20,387 nt of DNA from a virus. The stretch is from the IMG/VR virus record IMGVR_UViG_3300031162_000863, positions 1 to 20,387 of that record; one strand, written 5' to 3'. The position numbers were made by a program, and so were the translations under genes. Positions 4,700 through 17,079 of the stretch are shown piece by piece (within the stretch, counting starts at the first letter, position 1; each line of letters starts with the position of its first letter). The notes beneath the pieces are model-generated. The model was not told where the DNA came from and searched no databases. It was given only the letters and a program-made list of their open reading frames with translations.

Positions 4700-7210
4700 T
4701 CAATATGAGAAGTTTACAAAGTCTCGTTTGAGGAAATCATCTGGTGTAATACCTTGTTGGATAGTATAACTTGAAGTAGATACGTTATTGGTATTATTTG
4801 AAGTAGAATTACTTCCACCTTGTACAATCATTGGTCCACCCATTCCACCATATTCGCCGGCACCAGCAGCAGACTTAGCGTTCATAAGATCATTAATTGC
4901 CATTAGGACTTTACCTTGTGGGGAATCCAATGGTGCTACAATTTCTGCACCATGCAACATAGCCAATCCACCAGAAGCTGGCGCGTTCATAAAGCCACCC
5001 TTATTTGCTTGTGGAAGTTCAGCCAATTGAGCTCTAATAGCTGCAGCTTCAGCTTCAAAATCTTCTCTAGTATCATTTACAAAAGGAGTATCAAATTGTT
5101 CAGCCGCTGGTAATGCATTGGCTGCGGCCGCTTCCATTGCGGCTAATTGATCTACTAACCCAGCTCTTTGCTCTTCAATAGTATCTGGTCGCATCCATTC
5201 TGGAAGCATAGCAGTCAATGAAGCTTTGATCTCTGCAAAAGATGGTAGAAAATCAAATAGATCAGTAAAGAATGTTTTTACTTTATCAATAGCAGTATTG
5301 AATAAATCAGCAATGATATTTGTTTGTGATGCATCAGCAGCCCAAGTAAATAATCCAGTAAACCATTCTTTAGTTGCAGTCCATTTACCTTTTACAAAGT
5401 CAGTAAGGTTAGTCCATCCTTCAGTTGCTAAGTTGCTGGCAAAAGTGAATTTGCCAATTAGCAAATTCTTTGCTGCGGTAAATGCGCCTGATACTAATGA
5501 TGATAAAGACCATTCACCATCTTCGCCAGTACCAGCTTCAGATCCCCAAGTGAATAGACCTACAATCCAATCCTTTGCAGCTTTGAAAGCGTCTTTCACT
5601 AGTGTTGAAAGTTCAAATGGTTCTTCAGGATTTCCCCAACCAAATAGACCTTGGATCCAAGCAATTGCTTTATCAATTGGAGCAAATATAATATCAATTA
5701 ATCCACCTTCACCAACTAAGCCATTCCATGCTTGTTGCATAGCTGCTACTGGATCTGTGAATAATCCTTGTAACCATGTAATTGTTTTATCAATTGGAGT
5801 ATATAGAACGTCATAAAGAGAGAAGTCTCTATCAGGATCTCCAAGATTAAATAAACCCATAACCCAATTAATTGCTTTATCGATTGGAGCAGTAACTACA
5901 CCTAAAATACCATCGGGACCAATAAGACCCATAGATAAAGATTCTAATGCGGCTACTGGATCTGTGAATAATCCTTTTACCCAAGTAATAGCTCCGGTTA
6001 TAGCGCCACTAATAGTATCTTGCAATTTAAAAGGTTCATTGGGATCACCCCAGCCAAAGAGTCCTGAAATCCAATTAATAGCTGCGTTAATTGGTGCATA
6101 TACAATATCAACTAACCAATTAGCTCCAGAAACTAATCCATCCCACAAACTTTGAAGTGCTGCAACAGGATCAGTAAATAGAGTTCCAATCCAATCGAAA
6201 GCTCCTTTGATCATATCAAATATAGCACCAATAGAATCACTAATTAGTGTTGAGAACGAAAATTCATTTAGAGTAGCTTCAGCATTTTCAAATCCAAACT
6301 TACCAGCAATCCATGCTACAGCGCTCTTTAATAAGTCTAATGGATAACCAACAATAGTGGTTAATAATCCAGAGATACCACCTTCGAGTCCACCCAATAT
6401 GCCATCTTCTTTGAAGCCATCAATTGCTCCTTGAATAGCACCAATAGCTCCAGTAATAATCGTAAATGGAAGGAATAGTCTACCAAAGATTTTTACTAAA
6501 CCACCAAAGCGACCGGCTAATGCTCCAATAAATCTACCAACTTTTGAAACAGCTCGGATTATTCCTCGTACGCCTTTTACTAATGAACCAACTAAGCGTA
6601 TAATACGTCCACCAAATAACACGGCAACAGTACCAACAATAGCAGCAACAGCTCCAATATTATCTCCAAGCAAAGCAAATCCTTCGCCAAAGTCTCCATC
6701 TAAAAACATTTTAATAGAATCAATAATAGCAAATACACCATCAATTGCGGCTCTAACACCAGCAAATAATGTTTCAGGATCCATGAACAATAATGCTGCA
6801 GCGCCAAGACCAGCTATTAATCCACCAGAAGGTTTCATAGCATCTAATTGTTTATCATAAGCATCTGCTAATCCATCAATACCAGATACAAGTTGAGACA
6901 AAAATTCATTTGCTTCTTCTTGACGTCTGGCATTTTCTCGATTTTCTTCTTCAGTTCCTGCTAATCCTTGAAGTGCGTCTAATTGTTCTCGAGCTAATTC
7001 CATTTGCTCTTCATTAGACGCACTATCAAGAGATATTTGAACTTGCGTTAAGGTTTCCCTCAATTTGGCAGAGTTTTCCGTACCGCTTTTTTCTAAAGCA
7101 GTAATACTTTTATCGAGGTCATTTAAAGAGTCTTTTTGTTTTAACTCTTTATTTTGCTCTTGAATTGTAGCGGTCAATTGCTCTAATGAGCGACCTAGAT
7201 CTTCTGCCAT
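4700..7210 (-). CDS. Probable tail tape-measure protein (gp29 role)
   Basis: An 836-residue protein, the longest in the - block. Residues about 5-110 are charged and Gln/Glu-rich, consistent with coiled coil. Hydrophobic Gly/Ala/Ile/Leu helices follow at about 127-170 and 185-275, as in tape measures that insert into the host membrane. The centre (about 330-650) repeats W-x-x-G-L-F eight times (one as WIGTLF), with three long units of about 70 residues carrying TDPVAA. The C-terminal part has NKGGFMNAPASGGLAMLHGAE, an Asn/Ser-rich linker and a short terminal peptide. Size, architecture and its place downstream of gp26 and the small gp51-like gene fit the role of T4 gp29 (590 aa), which sets tail length. 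I do not see clear sequence identity to gp29 itself. By the common rule of about 0.15 nm per residue the tail would be roughly 125 nm. Its start lies five bases after the upstream stop. Confidence 0.75.
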   Translation of the reverse strand: MAEDLGRSLEQLTATIQEQNKELKQKDSLNDLDKSITALEKSGTENSAKLRETLTQVQISLDSASNEEQMELAREQLDALQGLAGTEEENRENARRQEEANEFLSQLVSGIDGLADAYDKQLDAMKPSGGLIAGLGAAALLFMDPETLFAGVRAAIDGVFAIIDSIKMFLDGDFGEGFALLGDNIGAVAAIVGTVAVLFGGRIIRLVGSLVKGVRGIIRAVSKVGRFIGALAGRFGGLVKIFGRLFLPFTIITGAIGAIQGAIDGFKEDGILGGLEGGISGLLTTIVGYPLDLLKSAVAWIAGKFGFENAEATLNEFSFSTLISDSIGAIFDMIKGAFDWIGTLFTDPVAALQSLWDGLVSGANWLVDIVYAPINAAINWISGLFGWGDPNEPFKLQDTISGAITGAITWVKGLFTDPVAALESLSMGLIGPDGILGVVTAPIDKAINWVMGLFNLGDPDRDFSLYDVLYTPIDKTITWLQGLFTDPVAAMQQAWNGLVGEGGLIDIIFAPIDKAIAWIQGLFGWGNPEEPFELSTLVKDAFKAAKDWIVGLFTWGSEAGTGEDGEWSLSSLVSGAFTAAKNLLIGKFTFASNLATEGWTNLTDFVKGKWTATKEWFTGLFTWAADASQTNIIADLFNTAIDKVKTFFTDLFDFLPSFAEIKASLTAMLPEWMRPDTIEEQRAGLVDQLAAMEAAAANALPAAEQFDTPFVNDTREDFEAEAAAIRAQLAELPQANKGGFMNAPASGGLAMLHGAEIVAPLDSPQGKVLMAINDLMNAKSAAGAGEYGGMGGPMIVQGGSNSTSNNTNNVSTSSYTIQQGITPDDFLKRDFVNFSY
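5600..6235 (-). repeat. Internal tandem repeats in the tape-measure gene
   Basis: Three diverged units each encode W-x-x-(G/T)-L-F-TDPVAA, then GL(V/I), then (Y/F/T)APID(K)AI(N)WI, then GLF-x-x-G-(D/N)P. The coding for the GxDPVAA segment recurs with GGATC(T/A)GT at about 5751, 5958 and 6168, spacings of 207 and 210 bases (69-70 codons). Related half units with W-x-x-G-L-F continue on both sides. The DNA is diverged, so this is an old protein repeat, not a recent duplication. Confidence 0.8.
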
Positions 7211-10271: not shown

Positions 10272-11039
10272 ATGGCATTTAAAGCACCATTAGTATTTCC
10301 AAGCAATTTATACACCACCGGAGCTGGCTATGTAACTTTTACTGCTTACGATAAAGATGGTGGATCCATTGGCCATTGCGCTTTGTATATGCCACCAGGA
10401 GTTTCTTTTGCAGACGGTGCTGGCTACTCTACATTTGACATGGGTCCTCTCGGAGCTGGTATTGCTGAAAGAATGTCTGGCGGCCTAGATTCAAACGCGA
10501 TAAAAGGTATTCTAGATGAAGCTACTGCAGCAGCAAACAGTAATTTAGATTTAAGAACTATTATGGCTGGTAAAATGATTCAAAATGCAGCGATGATTCC
10601 TGGTGCAGATAAAGTTTCTGATATTTACCAGCAGTCAAAATCTATTGCAATTAATCCAAATACTACTACTGCTTTTCAAAATATGAATATTCGTTCTTTT
10701 GTATTTAACTTTAAATTAGTTCCAGATAATCAATCTGAATCTGCTGATATTAAAAAGATTCAAAACTTTTTCCGTGAGCTAATGTACGCTGAAAAAGCAG
10801 GCCAAGGTTATCTATTAAGTTATCCCGCAAAGTGGAAGATTAAATTTAAAAATAGTCTTTCAAATGAAAATCCATATTATCCAAAAATTTATGAAAGCTA
10901 TTTAACAAACTTTCAAACTTCATTTAATAGCTCTGGACATTTGCATCATCGTGACGATGCACCAACTGAAGTTGATATATCCCTTACATTCCAAGAAACT
11001 CGAGTTCTTACTCGAGAAGAGATTATAGGATTACTATAA
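10272..11039 (+). CDS. 48: gp48-like baseplate tail-tube cap
   Basis: A 255-residue protein that fits the role of T4 gp48 (364 aa), which caps the central hub and connects it to the tube initiator gp54. The N-terminal part is Gly/Tyr/Phe-rich (LYTTGAGYVTFTAYDKDGG; YMPPGVSFADGAGYSTFD). An Ala-rich helical stretch follows at about 65-110. The C-terminal tube-like domain (about 130-255) has NIRSFVFNFKLVPDNQSESAD, KIQNFFRELMY, YLLSYPAKWKIKF and VDISLTFQETRVLTREEI. These C-terminal patterns are shared with gp48 of marine T4-like phages and with tube-fold proteins generally. It is first in the + baseplate unit, under the late promoter at 10224-10231. Its stop overlaps the start of gp53 (TAATG). Confidence 0.8.
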   Translation: MAFKAPLVFPSNLYTTGAGYVTFTAYDKDGGSIGHCALYMPPGVSFADGAGYSTFDMGPLGAGIAERMSGGLDSNAIKGILDEATAAANSNLDLRTIMAGKMIQNAAMIPGADKVSDIYQQSKSIAINPNTTTAFQNMNIRSFVFNFKLVPDNQSESADIKKIQNFFRELMYAEKAGQGYLLSYPAKWKIKFKNSLSNENPYYPKIYESYLTNFQTSFNSSGHLHHRDDAPTEVDISLTFQETRVLTREEIIGLL

Positions 11040-11812
11040 TGCCTCATTATTTTAAAAACTTTCCACTAACATCGTACAATTTTCAAGACGATCCAAACTC
11101 TCGCACTCTTGTAATTGATATTTTTAGAAATGTTAGAGCTGATATTAATATTGACGATGCTTCTGCTTATACTTTATATGAAGTACAAGAGAATGAAAGA
11201 CCTGACCAGATCTCACAATTGTTTTACGATACTCCAGAATATTATTGGACATTCTTTATTATTAACGATCATCTATACGAAGGTCTTCACGCATGGCCTA
11301 AAGAGTATAATGAACTTCAAGAAATTATTGCTCAAAAATATACAAAAACATTTATTACTGGTTATTTAAATGCTGGAATGACTGGTAGTAACCATTTAGT
11401 ACTTGATCAAGAATGGGTTGTTGGTGAGCAAATCATTGGCAATAATACTGGTCACACCGCTACTATTTCTGAAATTGATGTCTTTATGAATCGTCTTGAA
11501 ATTACTGATGCGACAGGTGATTTTACTGGAGATGAAGAAATTGACGGACAAACTTCTGGCGGAAGATGGGTTAGAACTCAAGCTTATGATTTTTCTGTTG
11601 AAGAACAAAAGAACGCAGCGCACCATTACGAAGATATAGATGGAATGGAAATTCCAAGAACACTTTTTTCTAAAGGCGAAACTGAAGTATTTGAAGTCAC
11701 TCATCGTGAATACGAAGAAAGACTTAATGATTCAAAACAGCAAATTAAAGTTTTGAAGCGTGGATTTATTGAAGATTTTGCTAGGGCTTATAAGAAGTTA
11801 ATTAATCAATGA
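11039..11812 (+). CDS. 53: gp53-like baseplate wedge protein with inserted module
   Basis: A 257-residue protein (T4 gp53 is 196). The N-terminal half is typical of gp53: HYFKNFPLTSYNF (3-15), DIFRNVRADI (27-36), then a LysM-like stretch YEVQENERPDQISQLFYD (47-64), YYWTFFIIND (68-77) and LHAWPKEYNELQEII (83-97). T4 gp53 links neighbouring wedges and closes the hub-wedge connection. Residues about 110-180 form an extra block with W-V-V-G-E-Q-I-I-G, then TGHTATISEID, LEITDATGDFTGDEEIDGQTSGG. This looks like a beta-strand module found in many marine phage structural proteins and would explain the extra length. The C-terminus (about 181-257) is charged and helical. The gene overlaps gp48 by one base and the hub gene by four. 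Confidence 0.85.
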   Translation: MPHYFKNFPLTSYNFQDDPNSRTLVIDIFRNVRADINIDDASAYTLYEVQENERPDQISQLFYDTPEYYWTFFIINDHLYEGLHAWPKEYNELQEIIAQKYTKTFITGYLNAGMTGSNHLVLDQEWVVGEQIIGNNTGHTATISEIDVFMNRLEITDATGDFTGDEEIDGQTSGGRWVRTQAYDFSVEEQKNAAHHYEDIDGMEIPRTLFSKGETEVFEVTHREYEERLNDSKQQIKVLKRGFIEDFARAYKKLINQ

Positions 11813-14031
11813 AGCAATCAGGTTTACATCCTACTAACTCTACAGGTGTAGGTAATCCCGGTGCTTTTCGAATGGAAATCAAAATCTATTCGGCAAGTGG
11901 CGAAGAAAGAGATATTACCCAACTTGTAGATACATTTGAAGTCACCGAATCTGTTTTCCAACAAGCTATGATTGGAGAATTCAGAATCGTTGATGGCGTC
12001 AACTTGTTTGAAGAATTAAATATTACCGGTAATGAAAGATTATCTGTAGTTCTTCGCAAACAATTAGATGGTCAAGGTCAAGCTGAAGACATGCAATCTG
12101 ATTGGTATATTATTGATATACCATTATTTGCAAGACCCAAGCCAGATGTTCAAGCATATACTTTACGATGCGTTTCTGCATTTGGACTTGTTTCTAAAAT
12201 GAGACGAGTAACTCATGTAATGAAAGGTCCACCATCTGATATTCTAAAAAGGTTATACGAAGAATGTGGTGTTGACGATTTAGATAAAGCTCTTGCTGAT
12301 TACAATGACTTTTTAAGACCAGATAATAATTCATTTAAGCTTTTAGTTGGTGATAATACATCTACTGGCGTAATGACTTATATTCCAACTAAGCAAACAT
12401 ATTCAGAAGCTATTATGCAAATTCTGTCAAAGACTGCTGCTCCAAATGGATCTCCATTCTTTTGTTATGAAACATTTATTGGTGGAAACTCAGTTCTTAA
12501 TTCATATAATAATATGATTTCAACTGAAGAAGCTGGTAATTATGTACAATCATTCTTCTTAACTGCAGATGCATTGACCGAAGCTTCATTTGAAGAACAA
12601 CGGTTGCGTATTTTAGAAATTTCTTCTAATCTCGGTTTCTCTCCATATAAAGGTTTCCGTGATGGTTCATATACAACGCGTACTCATATTTTAGATTGGA
12701 CTTCAAAGTCTTATCAGCTTCAAGATTTCAATGCAATGAGAGACGACATCCAAACTATGGATAAAGATCTTGTAATGCATCCAGATTTTTCTGTATCAGG
12801 AATTGATTATACAAATTCTCCTGATATGCATAATCTATTTTATGCTGTAAATAGACAAGCAATGTCTGATAAAGACGAAGTAAATATTCATATGCATATG
12901 CCATATGTTGGCGCAAAGAAAAGATCTATTATTTCTAATCTTGGCCAAATTGAGCATATGGTTAAAGTTCACGGTGATCCAAGACTACTTCCAGGTCGTC
13001 AGATTGGATTAGTGATTCCAAGATCTGGTTCTGAAAAAGCTGACCGAGATGAAATGCTTTCTGGTCGCTATTTAATTGTATCTTCAATTCATACATTTGA
13101 TAATAATGGTTATTACACTCGTCTCAAATTAGCTCGGGATGGCATTGATAGAGGTGATTTGCAGTACAGACCAGTTGAAGGTGTACCTGATGTTCGTTAT
13201 GGCGATGAAGCCTTTGACGTTACTCCTCAAGTTACAAATGTAATTGGTCAAAATCCAGCCGGTGGAGCTGGTGGATTACAGCAACAAGGACCTATTGCAA
13301 CTGAAGTTATTCCAGGTTATGGTCCTGGCGAAGTTGATCCAGCATTAGCGGCAGCAGTAGCAAATTCAGCTGCTGTAACTGGTGATAATGCTCAAAGACA
13401 AGCTGAAGCTAATGGCGGTTCGGCAGCAGATGTTGCAGGCGATGAAACTGGATCTGCATCAGGTCAAGATTTCAATCCTGGTGATATTGATTCCGGAGAA
13501 GCTCCATCTACTTCTCAAACTGTTCAAGGAACAGTAGTTTCAGATGATCCAGCTTCTGTGATTACAGAAGTAATCGATTTTGGTCCAGGTTATAATATTG
13601 TAAGACTTGGTGATGGCCGGGTCGTAAGACGTCAAGGTGCTCGCAATTGGAGAAACCACAATCCAGGAAATATCGAAGAAGGTGGGTTTATGCAAGCCCG
13701 TGGTTCTCTGGGTGGCGATCCTAGATTTGCTATCATGCCATCTTATGCCGCAGGTAGACAAGCTAAATACGATCTAATATTTACTGCATCTAGCTATAAA
13801 GATCTTCCAATTTCTGCAGCTATTGCTAGATATGCTCCAGCGTTTGAAAACAACACTCAATCTTATGCTAGACAAGTAATTTCTACAGCAGCAGTTCCGG
13901 CCGAACGTGGTGGACCAGATGCAAAAATGAAAGATACTAATGAAGCCGAGCGTCAAAGAATTCTTGATGCTATGGAAAAGGTTGAAGGCTTTAGAGTTGG
14001 TACTGTGACTGAATTAACGGGATATAATTAA
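11809..14031 (+). CDS. 27: gp27-like baseplate hub fused to a peptidoglycan-active domain
   Basis: A 740-residue protein, far longer than T4 gp27 (391). Residues about 20-465 are hub-like: FRMEIKIYSASGEERDITQL, TFEVTESVFQQAMIGEFRIVDG, the tube-like strands, and HGDPRLLPGRQIGLVIPRSG near the end. A flexible Gly/Ala/Gln/Ser-rich stretch spans about 478-590. The C-terminal domain (about 612-735) starts RNWRNHNPGNIEEGG, then GDPRFAIMPSYAAGRQAKYDL, PISAAIARYAPAFENNTQSYARQV. This is the RNxNPGNI...YAP..EN.T..Y domain found in many phage virion proteins (sometimes named after PRD1 P5) and thought to act on peptidoglycan. Its catalytic residues are not established here. In T4 the trimeric hub holds the gp5 spike, encoded next here, and this start overlaps gp53 (ATGA). 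The next gene overlaps by one base (TAATG). Confidence 0.8.
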   Translation: MKQSGLHPTNSTGVGNPGAFRMEIKIYSASGEERDITQLVDTFEVTESVFQQAMIGEFRIVDGVNLFEELNITGNERLSVVLRKQLDGQGQAEDMQSDWYIIDIPLFARPKPDVQAYTLRCVSAFGLVSKMRRVTHVMKGPPSDILKRLYEECGVDDLDKALADYNDFLRPDNNSFKLLVGDNTSTGVMTYIPTKQTYSEAIMQILSKTAAPNGSPFFCYETFIGGNSVLNSYNNMISTEEAGNYVQSFFLTADALTEASFEEQRLRILEISSNLGFSPYKGFRDGSYTTRTHILDWTSKSYQLQDFNAMRDDIQTMDKDLVMHPDFSVSGIDYTNSPDMHNLFYAVNRQAMSDKDEVNIHMHMPYVGAKKRSIISNLGQIEHMVKVHGDPRLLPGRQIGLVIPRSGSEKADRDEMLSGRYLIVSSIHTFDNNGYYTRLKLARDGIDRGDLQYRPVEGVPDVRYGDEAFDVTPQVTNVIGQNPAGGAGGLQQQGPIATEVIPGYGPGEVDPALAAAVANSAAVTGDNAQRQAEANGGSAADVAGDETGSASGQDFNPGDIDSGEAPSTSQTVQGTVVSDDPASVITEVIDFGPGYNIVRLGDGRVVRRQGARNWRNHNPGNIEEGGFMQARGSLGGDPRFAIMPSYAAGRQAKYDLIFTASSYKDLPISAAIARYAPAFENNTQSYARQVISTAAVPAERGGPDAKMKDTNEAERQRILDAMEKVEGFRVGTVTELTGYN

Positions 14032-16157
14032 TGGCTACGTTTAATAATAAAGATGGATTTAAGTCAACTGATTTTAATTGGTTTACTGGCGTGGTTGAGG
14101 ATCGTCATGATCCCTTAGTACTCAATCGTGTAAAAGTTCGTTGCTTTGGTTGGCATACAGAAAATAAAAGAGCATTACCTACAGAAGAATTACCTTGGGC
14201 ATCTGTTTTAATGCCTACAACTTCGTCTGGTACTTCGGGTGTTGGTGAAGGTACTCACGGGCTTGTTGAAGGTTCATGGGTTATGGGATTCTTTAGAGAT
14301 GGTAATGATGCTCAAGATCCAGTAATCATGGGTACTATTATGGGTACTAATACTGAAGGTTCTGAACCAACAACTGGATTTAATGATCCATATGGAGTCT
14401 TTCCAAGAGAAGCTGGTACTGATGCGGGTACAAGAGCATTAGGTCTTGATTCTGAAAGAGTTCGTCCTGTTGGAGCTACAGAACCTGAAGATGCGTATGC
14501 ACCACAATATCCATATAACAAAGTTCGTTTAACTGAATCAGGTCACATCGTAGAATTTGATGATACACCTGGAGCAGAACGTATTAATATAAGACATCGT
14601 ACTGGATCGTTTATTGAATTAAGACCTGATACATCTATGCGAACTCGTTCAAAAGAACGATTTGATGCTATGACACAGTGGACAGTTACAGTGACTGGAG
14701 ATGCTACTGTAAATGTTGGTGGAAGTATGTCTACAACAGTTCAAGGTAATATGACATCTTCAGTTGCTGGTAATTCTTATATTGACACAAGGGGTAATGT
14801 TACTTCTCGTGTTTCTGGTTCTCATTATGGTTATGTTCAGGGTTCATCGATTCTGCAAACAACTGGTAATATTAACGTTAAGACAACAGGTAACCTAACA
14901 GTTGATTCCGCTGGTAAAATTGATTTTAGATCTGATGGTCCATTCTCAATTACAGCACCTTCGATGACCATTGACTTACAAGAAGACTTATCAATTGTTG
15001 GTACTAATATGATTACCGATATGTCTGCTACTATAGTCACACAAGTTCCAACTCTATCAATGATTACAGATGTAACTAGAATTGATGCAACGCAATCATT
15101 AGATCTTCACACTGTAGCATTTACTGGAGTTGGTACAAGTACAATGAATCTTACAGCAGATGTTCTTTCTATTGCAGCTATTACTTCTGGTGGTGTTAAT
15201 GCCGGCTCCAGTCTTGATATTTCAGCTGGATCCGAAATGAACCTTGTAACTGCAACCATGTCTCTTGATGCAGATTCTGAAATGAATATTGCTGGTGCAT
15301 CTACAAATCTTGGTTCTTCTGGAACAACAACTATTAAATCTGGCTTCTTGGATCTTAACCCTGGTGGAACAATGTCTCCATTCTCACCAGATGGAGCTCC
15401 TGCAGCTCCAGATGCTCCATTGGTCCCAGCTCCAACTGCACCGAATGCTCTTCCAGCCGTTGGATTTGATGCTCTTGAATCTGCTCCATTTGAAGTACAA
15501 ATTGACGAAGCTGATACCGACATTAGCTTTCCAACTCCAAAATACTCGGCAATTACTCCAGATGGAACAGCAGCTTATTCCCAACAAGTACTTAATTTGA
15601 CAAGTACTGGCCGTGCTGGTATTTCTGGATATTCAGGTACTGGTCTTCAAAGCAAAACTTCAGATACAACTAATCCAGCAATTGATGGTAAGATTATTTA
15701 CTCTAATAGACCATTCGATGATAGTGGAATAACCGTAAAATACACTAATGCTCATGCAACAAGAAATAAAGAAATTGTGTCAGCACTTGAGCAAATAATT
15801 ATTACTGCTTGCAAAAATAGTGGTCTATCAGCTGAAATATTCTCTGGCGGTATGACACCACAAAGAAGGACTGGTTCAGATCGTCACTTAAATGGCTTTG
15901 CTGCTGATGTACATCTATTTACTTCAGAAGGTAAAAGGTTAAATGTCCAATCTCAAGAACTTCGCGATTGGTGTCAACAAGCTAAAAATGCTGGTGCCAC
16001 AGCAATTGGTGCTGGTGTTGGTTATATGGGCAATGTAGGTGTTCACTTAGATATTTCGGCTGGTAATACTGTTCCGGCAGCCGCTGCTAAATATTGGGGT
16101 GCTGGCGGTAGAGCGGCTAATGCTCCTCAATGGCTAATTAACATTATGACGGGTTAA
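14031..16157 (+). CDS. 5: gp5-like central spike with C-terminal M15-type peptidase
   Basis: A 708-residue spike protein. Residues about 13-125 form the gp5 OB fold (FNWFTGVVEDRHDPLVLNRV, ELPWASVLMP, HGLVEGSWVMGFF, DPVIMGTIMG). The trypsin-like cutting loop and the lysozyme domain that T4 gp5 carries next are missing. Instead, from about 162 the sequence goes directly into VRLTESGHIVEFDDTPG and a long Thr/Ser/Val/Asn-rich beta-helix (about 210-440). A Pro/Ala linker follows (about 443-475). The C-terminal domain (about 555-700) has GSDRHLNGFAADVH (615-628) and VHLD (671-674). His619, Asp626 and His672 fit the zinc ligands of peptidase family M15, D-Ala/L-Ala-D-Glu peptidases that cut cross-bridges. 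A PAAR tip gene lies two genes downstream. It overlaps the hub gene by one base. Confidence 0.85.
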   Translation: MATFNNKDGFKSTDFNWFTGVVEDRHDPLVLNRVKVRCFGWHTENKRALPTEELPWASVLMPTTSSGTSGVGEGTHGLVEGSWVMGFFRDGNDAQDPVIMGTIMGTNTEGSEPTTGFNDPYGVFPREAGTDAGTRALGLDSERVRPVGATEPEDAYAPQYPYNKVRLTESGHIVEFDDTPGAERINIRHRTGSFIELRPDTSMRTRSKERFDAMTQWTVTVTGDATVNVGGSMSTTVQGNMTSSVAGNSYIDTRGNVTSRVSGSHYGYVQGSSILQTTGNINVKTTGNLTVDSAGKIDFRSDGPFSITAPSMTIDLQEDLSIVGTNMITDMSATIVTQVPTLSMITDVTRIDATQSLDLHTVAFTGVGTSTMNLTADVLSIAAITSGGVNAGSSLDISAGSEMNLVTATMSLDADSEMNIAGASTNLGSSGTTTIKSGFLDLNPGGTMSPFSPDGAPAAPDAPLVPAPTAPNALPAVGFDALESAPFEVQIDEADTDISFPTPKYSAITPDGTAAYSQQVLNLTSTGRAGISGYSGTGLQSKTSDTTNPAIDGKIIYSNRPFDDSGITVKYTNAHATRNKEIVSALEQIIITACKNSGLSAEIFSGGMTPQRRTGSDRHLNGFAADVHLFTSEGKRLNVQSQELRDWCQQAKNAGATAIGAGVGYMGNVGVHLDISAGNTVPAAAAKYWGAGGRAANAPQWLINIMTG

Positions 16158-16160
16158 CGT

Positions 16161-16775
16161 ATGCCATATCCTTATTTACCAGAAGATCAAATAACATTTT
16201 CAAATCCAGGATCTCCACTATCAAATGAATTTTCTGGATCGCCGACATCAACTAATCCTAGAGAATTATATAATTTTGAATTTGATTTAAGTCAATATGC
16301 TTCATTTACTGGGGCCGGTGGAACATTAGAATTTTATATTATTGGTGGAACTTTACCAAATAATTTAACTTTATCTTCATCTGGTCAAATATCTGGTCAA
16401 GTAATTGATATGGATTCTTATGTCGATTGGACTGGAACACCATATGAAGAACCTCCAAACTTTGTTTTAGAGCTAGATGGATCAAATTTTGGATCATGGG
16501 GATCAGCAAAAGCAGGTTCATACGCAACCGATTTTACAGTTAGAGCTCACGTAACTGATGCTCCACCTGATGAATTTTATGCTGATGTTGATACTTCAAT
16601 TCTTGTTGTAAATAATTATTCATCTGATAGAGATCAATTTATTCGTGATTATACCGAAGAACATGGTGAAGGAGTATCTGGCTCAAAAGTTTTATTTAGA
16701 GTTAATGATATTCCAGTTACTGCAGAAGAATATTTAAATTATCAAAAGTCATTGGGTAATTACCCAGTATTATAG
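16161..16775 (+). CDS. Putative virion protein with an Ig-like (He_PIG-type) segment
   Basis: A 204-residue acidic protein without a recognised T4 counterpart. Residues about 37-80 carry YNFEFDLSQYASF and GGTLPNNLTLSSSGQISGQV. The LP-x-x-L-T-L-x-x-x-G-x-I-x-G pattern is that of the He_PIG/cadherin-like Ig fold found in adhesins and phage tail proteins. A central loop-rich region (about 85-150) has many Gly, Ser and Trp. A C-terminal helical part ends DRDQFIRDY, SKVLFRVNDIPVTAEEYLNYQKSL. It starts three bases after gp5. Its TAG stop is part of the TAGGAG ribosome-binding site of the PAAR gene. Its place between spike and tip suggests it is a spike adaptor or baseplate decoration, which is inference. 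Confidence 0.75.
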   Translation: MPYPYLPEDQITFSNPGSPLSNEFSGSPTSTNPRELYNFEFDLSQYASFTGAGGTLEFYIIGGTLPNNLTLSSSGQISGQVIDMDSYVDWTGTPYEEPPNFVLELDGSNFGSWGSAKAGSYATDFTVRAHVTDAPPDEFYADVDTSILVVNNYSSDRDQFIRDYTEEHGEGVSGSKVLFRVNDIPVTAEEYLNYQKSLGNYPVL

Positions 16776-16785
16776 GAGATACAAT

Positions 16786-17079
16786 ATGCCAATGGTTTCG
16801 CGTTTAGGTGATTCTTGCACTGGTCATGGATCATTTCCTCCTCGTGCTTCAATTGCTGCTAGTGGTGATTGTAATGTAAATGGAATTCCAGCTCATCGTC
16901 AAGGAGATGCTTGGGCACCACATGGTTCTCCTTCTCCTTCTCCACCACATCCTGGATCTACTGCAGCTGGCTCTGGTACTGTAAGTTTAAATAATAAACC
17001 ATTAGCTAGAATTGGTGACCCTGTAGATTGCGGAAGTGCAATTGCTGCAGGGTCAGGTGATGTAAACTGCGGTGGATAA
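16786..17079 (+). CDS. 5.4: PAAR-domain spike tip protein (gp5.4-like)
   Basis: A 97-residue protein made of a single PAAR domain: VSRLGDSCTGHG at the start, SIAASGDCNVNGIPAHRQGD (23-42), a His/Pro/Ser-rich stretch with APHGSPSPSPPHPGS, and SGTVSLNNKPLARIGDPVDCG (62-82), then SGDVNCGG. These are the duplicated G-D and N-G-x-P-(A/L)-x-R-x-G-D repeats of the family. Several His and Cys residues are available to bind the metal ion at the tip. PAAR proteins form a sharp cone that caps the gp5/VgrG beta-helix and helps it pierce the outer membrane; T4 gp5.4 is the equivalent. AGGAG lies shortly before the ATG, reusing the stop of the upstream gene. Confidence 0.92.
   Translation: MPMVSRLGDSCTGHGSFPPRASIAASGDCNVNGIPAHRQGDAWAPHGSPSPSPPHPGSTAAGSGTVSLNNKPLARIGDPVDCGSAIAAGSGDVNCGG

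Follow-up and report, generated by a model that had tools for sequence, protein, structure and literature searches.

The gp5 spike and its missing lysozyme

Most gp5 central spike proteins without a lysozyme are labeled "tail lysozyme", which hides how the phages that carry them cross the cell wall. The locus described here raises this question for a spike in which a first-pass annotation had seen no lysozyme, and had predicted a peptidase behind the needle instead. The sequence analyzed (hereafter the window) is the whole of the 20,387-base virus record IMGVR_UViG_3300031162_000863, a metagenomic fragment from an uncultured T4-like phage. Genes near gp5 are ordered as tail tube cap gp48, wedge gp53, a gp27-like hub, gp5, a 204-aa protein, a PAAR protein, gp25 and more wedge proteins. 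The gp53-like protein (11039-11812) has a C-terminal extension weakly similar to PHROG 460 (head closure) and PHROG 701 (virion structural protein), and an 836-aa tape-measure-like protein (4700-7210, -) is encoded on the strand opposite to the baseplate genes. A Hydrolase_2 (SleB/CwlJ-type) protein with a hydrophobic N-terminal stretch, found at 2332-2856 (2.7e-21), is probably the lysis endolysin.

The gp5 ORF (14031..16157, +) encodes 708 aa; its coordinates and the residue numbers H619, D626 and H672 had been given correctly. It was identified as a gp5-type central spike by PHROG 430 (4.3e-82), Pfam Gp5_OB and phmmer matches to gp5 in the PDB, and its ATG overlaps the stop codon of the gp27-like gene (TAATG). 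The OB fold covers residues 14-138 (14070..14444, +; Gp5_OB 1.6e-24 at residues 45-137), and the needle, a triple beta-helix recognized by Pfam, phmmer and BLASTP, covers residues 151-444 (14481..15362, +) and terminates in DLNP (441-444). Gp5_trimer_C was placed at residues 175-263, under the Pfam cut-off. Pfam, PHROGs, phmmer and BLASTP demonstrated homology of the OB fold and the needle to T4 gp5, with which the protein also shares its place between the gp53/hub genes and gp25 and a separate PAAR.

Unlike in T4 gp5, OB fold and needle are not separated by a lysozyme, and ~264 extra residues with a LAS/M15-like domain follow the needle. A junction of 12 residues (14445..14480, +) stands in place of the ~278 residues of a lysozyme-bearing gp5. 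Two-block alignments were obtained both with BLASTP against gp5 of Aeromonas phage Aswh_1 (14-138 to 2-130 and 151-307 to 409-567) and with phmmer against T4-type gp5 in the PDB (14-135 to 7-132 and 150-303 to 378-533). Phage_lysozyme was not found in the window gp5 by the same Pfam search that located it at 190-324 in the Aswh_1 control. Judged by sequence, the lysozyme domain is absent, which bears out the first-pass annotation; the stretch from residue 125 to 165, where a hidden lysozyme fold would have spoken against it, is too short to hold one. A lysozyme match was also absent from the gp5s of phages ACP17, K393 and F336 and of three cyanophages. Absence of the gp5 lysozyme is common and not peculiar to this phage. 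The gp5 of the Ackermannviridae phage rabagast (L060:4998-6623) has a CHAP domain at 191-266 where T4 has the lysozyme, and its label is still tail lysozyme.

A predicted zinc peptidase behind the needle

The ~264 residues beyond the needle consist of a Pro/Ala-rich linker of ~110 residues (445-553; 15363..15689, +) and a predicted LAS/M15-like zinc peptidase domain of 155 residues (554-708; 15690..16154, +). Among 80 relatives from IMG/VR, the 18 M15-bearing gp5s examined are at least 76% identical to the window in the OB fold and needle start, and the domain is absent from more distant gp5 relatives (≤50% identity). Among the complete lysozyme-less relatives, 37 of 51 terminate at LN(P), exactly where the window's linker starts, so the extension was most likely added behind a pre-existing needle end. 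The enzyme domain is under purifying selection (dN/dS 0.06-0.28); helix and linker are the fastest-evolving parts, ahead of OB fold and enzyme domain, in most comparisons. A metagenomic fragment could in principle owe such a fusion of an endolysin to gp5 to a chimera or misassembly. That explanation has practically no probability and is refuted by 15 distinct gp5 sequences with the same join on independent contigs; dN/dS across the join is also low.

Searches with profiles placed the domain outside the curated M15 families. No curated M15 model in Pfam or NCBIfam matched the whole gp5 or the isolated domain, direct searches of the domain with PF08291 and PF05951 were negative, nothing rose above cut-off when the isolated domain was compared with Pfam, NCBIfam and PHROGs, and a phmmer search of the PDB with the domain alone found nothing. 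A narrow alignment of the domain gave noise plus one M15C protein in the PDB. When the alignment was widened with the related domains of OLIVR1, RHph_I42 and Cp1R7A, hmmsearch of the resulting broad profile against the PDB returned four chains below E 10, all of them M15 peptidases (Ply500, best at 0.0018, LysB4, LysECD7 and RB49).

Two AlphaFold models of the domain, of moderate confidence (pLDDT 76.5 and 73.6, pTM 0.79 and 0.77), were compared with known structures using Foldseek. For each model the first 41 PDB matches were all LAS folds, with E from 3e-3 upward, mostly with a probability >0.85, and TM-scores of ~0.4; no PDB match of either model fell below 1e-3. As the single matches are weak (E ≥3e-3, TM ~0.4), the weight rests on the consistency of the list, which is led by hedgehog domains, LysECD7, the RB49 M15C peptidase, LysB4, MepA and Ply500. 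In BFVD, six matches had E below 1e-3, among them a protein that bears the name Peptidase M15A (3.8e-5).

The LAS zinc triad H-x6-D ... H is present as His619 (15885..15887, +), Asp626 (15906..15908, +) and His672 (16044..16046, +). These predicted zinc ligands are invariant in the wide alignments A4 and A5, and across gp5, hub and tape-measure-type carriers from unrelated phages; Asp674 (16050..16052, +) is invariant in A5. The motif pair H..G.A.D ... H.D occurs once among the window's six-frame ORFs of at least 60 aa, in 4 of 200,000 shuffles of the domain, and in 18 of 18 M15-bearing gp5s examined. Because no curated M15 model matches, the M15/LAS call is carried by the invariant triad together with the weak profile matches and the fold matches, and on these the prediction of a divergent LAS/M15-like zinc peptidase below curated thresholds is well supported. 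The proposed M15-type peptidase after the Pro/Ala linker was accordingly upheld as a zinc-peptidase-like LAS/M15 domain, and not as a member of a curated family: it is M15-like, yet outside any Pfam M15 family.

The predicted active site is unusual in having neither the His of an HxH motif nor a Glu or Asp three residues before the second zinc His (G670 and V669 stand there instead; A5). E. coli MepK (YcbK), annotated as a peptidoglycan L,D-endopeptidase, has the same arrangement: it shares the H..G.A.D and GVGY....VH.D motifs with the domain (SYHTKGQAMDF ... GGVGYYPRSNFVHIDTG), has Asp at the place of Asp674, and shows neither HxH nor E/D ahead of the zinc His. Unlike the spike domain, MepK is a free cell enzyme, and the likeness is at motif level (hhalign 0.007-0.09); hhalign of the domain with single MepK and pf16 sequences gave motif-level alignments only, not significant alone. 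LdcB is also without HxH, and its E204A mutant retains residual activity (PMC4087270).

The domain might alternatively keep the LAS fold, perhaps with zinc, and be no enzyme. It would then bind wall or envelope components at the tip, and the cutting would be left to the hub; hedgehog domains, too, have retained this fold although a protease role is not clear for them. The hedgehog domains among the top fold matches fit such a binding domain, and so does the lack of a canonical catalytic residue next to the second zinc His. We nevertheless consider it unlikely, given a zinc triad that is invariant over distant carriers and the annotated endopeptidase activity of MepK with its same residue pattern. 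A peptidoglycan peptidase is the most likely prediction for the domain.

The spike tip and the hub

The separate PAAR tip protein (97 aa; 16786..17079, +; Pfam PAAR_motif 5.5e-10) is encoded downstream of gp5 in every locus of the M15 clade (L062-L080). Between the two genes lies the 204-aa protein (16161..16775, +), with a weak He_PIG match in Pfam. It is variable, with a homologue in L067 only among these loci, and is thus not a constant partner. It had been argued that three peptidase copies at the place of the PAAR tip require a tip geometry different from T4, or a linker that folds back. This claim is unsupported, because PAAR follows gp5 throughout the clade, the linker is long, and the evolved VgrGs of T6SS share the layout, in which a spike tipped by PAAR bears enzymes at its C-terminus (PMC6899460, PMC7043769); in several phages an M15-type domain even sits on PAAR itself. 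At ~110 residues, the linker is long enough for the chains to exit sideways, and none of this evidence calls for a new tip. The more radical version of the same idea, also one possibility in the first-pass annotation, is that this gp5 has no PAAR cap and that its tip is made of the peptidases. Three chains do exit the needle where PAAR would bind; even so, we regard a rebuilt tip as very unlikely in view of the PAAR gene, the evolved VgrGs, and a needle end, DLNP, that is identical to that of relatives without extension.

The likeness to evolved VgrGs (V. cholerae VgrG3, P. aeruginosa VgrG2b) lies in an enzyme after the spike beta-helix and a separate PAAR. These proteins combine the gp27 and gp5 parts in one chain, whereas the window has separate ORFs (11809-14031 and 14031-16157); VgrG2b has a HEXXH peptidase and not the LAS triad, and evolved VgrGs are effectors against rivals, not devices for phage entry. 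The spike would work like an evolved VgrG but is none, and it is a gp5 homologue but no tail lysozyme.

The gp27-like hub protein (740 aa; 11809..14031, +) matched PHROG 350 over residues 16-448, a family that also precedes gp5 in P-SSM2 and pf16. A PDB profile search of the hub gave a spurious GpsB match and no gp27; the protein is called gp27-like on the basis of PHROG 350, of its place in the gene order and of a weak collinear hhalign alignment to T4 gp27. Its C-terminal domain (residues 584-740; 13558..14028, +), overlooked in the first-pass annotation, is an Enc34-endolysin-like domain of lysozyme fold, matching PHROG 873 (endolysin) and, in the PDB, the Gp29 N-terminus (9vvp, 1.7e-7) and the Enc34 endolysin (7q47, 3.9e-5). 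The 7q47 match spans residues 28-109 of the hub domain and establishes homology to the Enc34 catalytic domain (PHA02564); the alignment ends before the catalytic Glu131, for which E714, E723 and E726 are invariant candidates in the hub. Muralytic activity and a lysozyme fold are described for the Enc34 endolysin domain, which has been argued to be a glycosidase (PMC8943055). The hub domain is therefore a probable glycosidase, and since the gp27-like hub carries it, glycan cutting was probably relocated and not lost.

The window's subclade has the hub domain; L076, L078, L079 and L080 lack it but retain the domain on gp5. It bears in two ways on the possibility of a non-catalytic spike domain: a second hydrolase-like domain on the hub could take over all cutting, but subclade B (L076-L080) keeps the gp5 domain though the hub domain is missing there. 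A hub-spike complex with both glycan-cutting and peptidase domains, tested active, is known from Anabaena myophage A-1(L); unlike in the window, all its enzyme domains lie in the hub (gp15) and the central spike is unadorned.

We consider it probable that these parts form one system, in which a lysozyme-less spike with a LAS/M15-like wall peptidase at its tip is combined with a glycan cutter on the hub. In this explanation, a trimeric spike of T4-gp5 type, without internal lysozyme, would have gained a LAS-superfamily (M15-like) zinc peptidase behind the needle on a long flexible linker. Upon tail contraction, the spike and the PAAR tip would carry the three peptidase copies into the periplasm, where local cleavage of peptide bonds in the peptidoglycan would clear the way for the tube. 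With the lysozyme-fold domain added by the hub, hub and spike together would cut both glycan and peptide. The clade thus indicates where the wall-cutting activity probably went.

Related domains on other phage proteins

Domains of the same subfamily were found on another gp5-like lineage (L166, PHROG 13211), a hub-type protein (L170, PHROG 11190), an unassigned 733-aa protein (L168), an N4-like virion structural protein of OLIVR1, a tail protein of Rhizobium phage RHph_I42, where it lies behind Phage_lysozyme2, and the tape measure protein of Mesorhizobium phage Cp1R7A. A by-eye reading of L166 as a GH24-like lysozyme plus M15 received no confirmation from a PDB search; the secure case of lysozyme plus M15 is Caulobacter phage Cr30. 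Taken together with the carriers described below, nearly all of these are virion proteins associated with entry, in support of a role in opening the wall locally.

The bond that the spike domain cuts is one that we infer, and the domain could instead be a protease that matures the spike or attacks a target distinct from peptidoglycan, for example a protein of the outer membrane or the periplasm. The periplasmic metallopeptidase carried by VgrG2b of P. aeruginosa, proposed to interfere with wall enzymes (PMC7043769), offers a parallel. We hold such a target to be quite unlikely, as the solved M15 relatives (Ply500, LysB4, LysECD7 and RB49) are named wall peptidases or endolysins, and related domains adjoin lysozymes in tail proteins.

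A second M15 subfamily, recognized by Pfam at or near its cut-off, sits at the corresponding position of gp5 in two independent isolates, Pseudomonas phage pf16 (gp208) and Cr30. Both share OB fold, needle, linker and C-terminal M15-type domain with the window, and pf16 is likewise without lysozyme, whereas Cr30 keeps Phage_lysozyme2. Their domains are of the Peptidase_M15_3 type; that of the window is separate and more divergent, with a different second motif. Second-subfamily domains are also carried by the Melnitz needle protein and, on PAAR, by Pseudomonas phages Paride and Milchi and Vibrio phage 1.255.O. The PAAR fusions resemble the window in that a linker connects an M15-type domain to the spike tip, but they provide one copy per tip, whereas gp5 provides three. 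These fusions (L188:2437-3459, L189:2467-3456 and L190:2467-3471) are annotated "PAAR motif of membrane proteins" or endolysin.

An M15-type add-on recurs at different places of other phages' needles, and seems to have gone largely unremarked so far: the literature searched, which did not cover most subscription journals, yielded no account of phages with gp5-M15 or PAAR-M15. One generalization, to which we give an even chance, is that contractile phages freely exchange their wall-cutting enzymes as a cassette with four docking places (inside gp5, behind the needle, on PAAR and on the hub). The clade would use two non-classical ones at once, with an unnamed LAS-peptidase subfamily that resembles MepK rather than phage endolysins in residue arrangement. 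The clade adds a subfamily of LAS domains undetected by Pfam, and the series of internal lysozyme, tip M15, PAAR-M15, tip CHAP and hub lysozyme is natural material for testing how position on the spike affects entry. A CHAP domain behind the needle was found above cut-off (8.7e-9) in a gp5 at L106:5989-7869. Just ahead of its needle protein, Melnitz-3 encodes a second protein with an OB domain, which gave a VanY match below threshold (PF02557, 1.1e-4; L187:437-1477).
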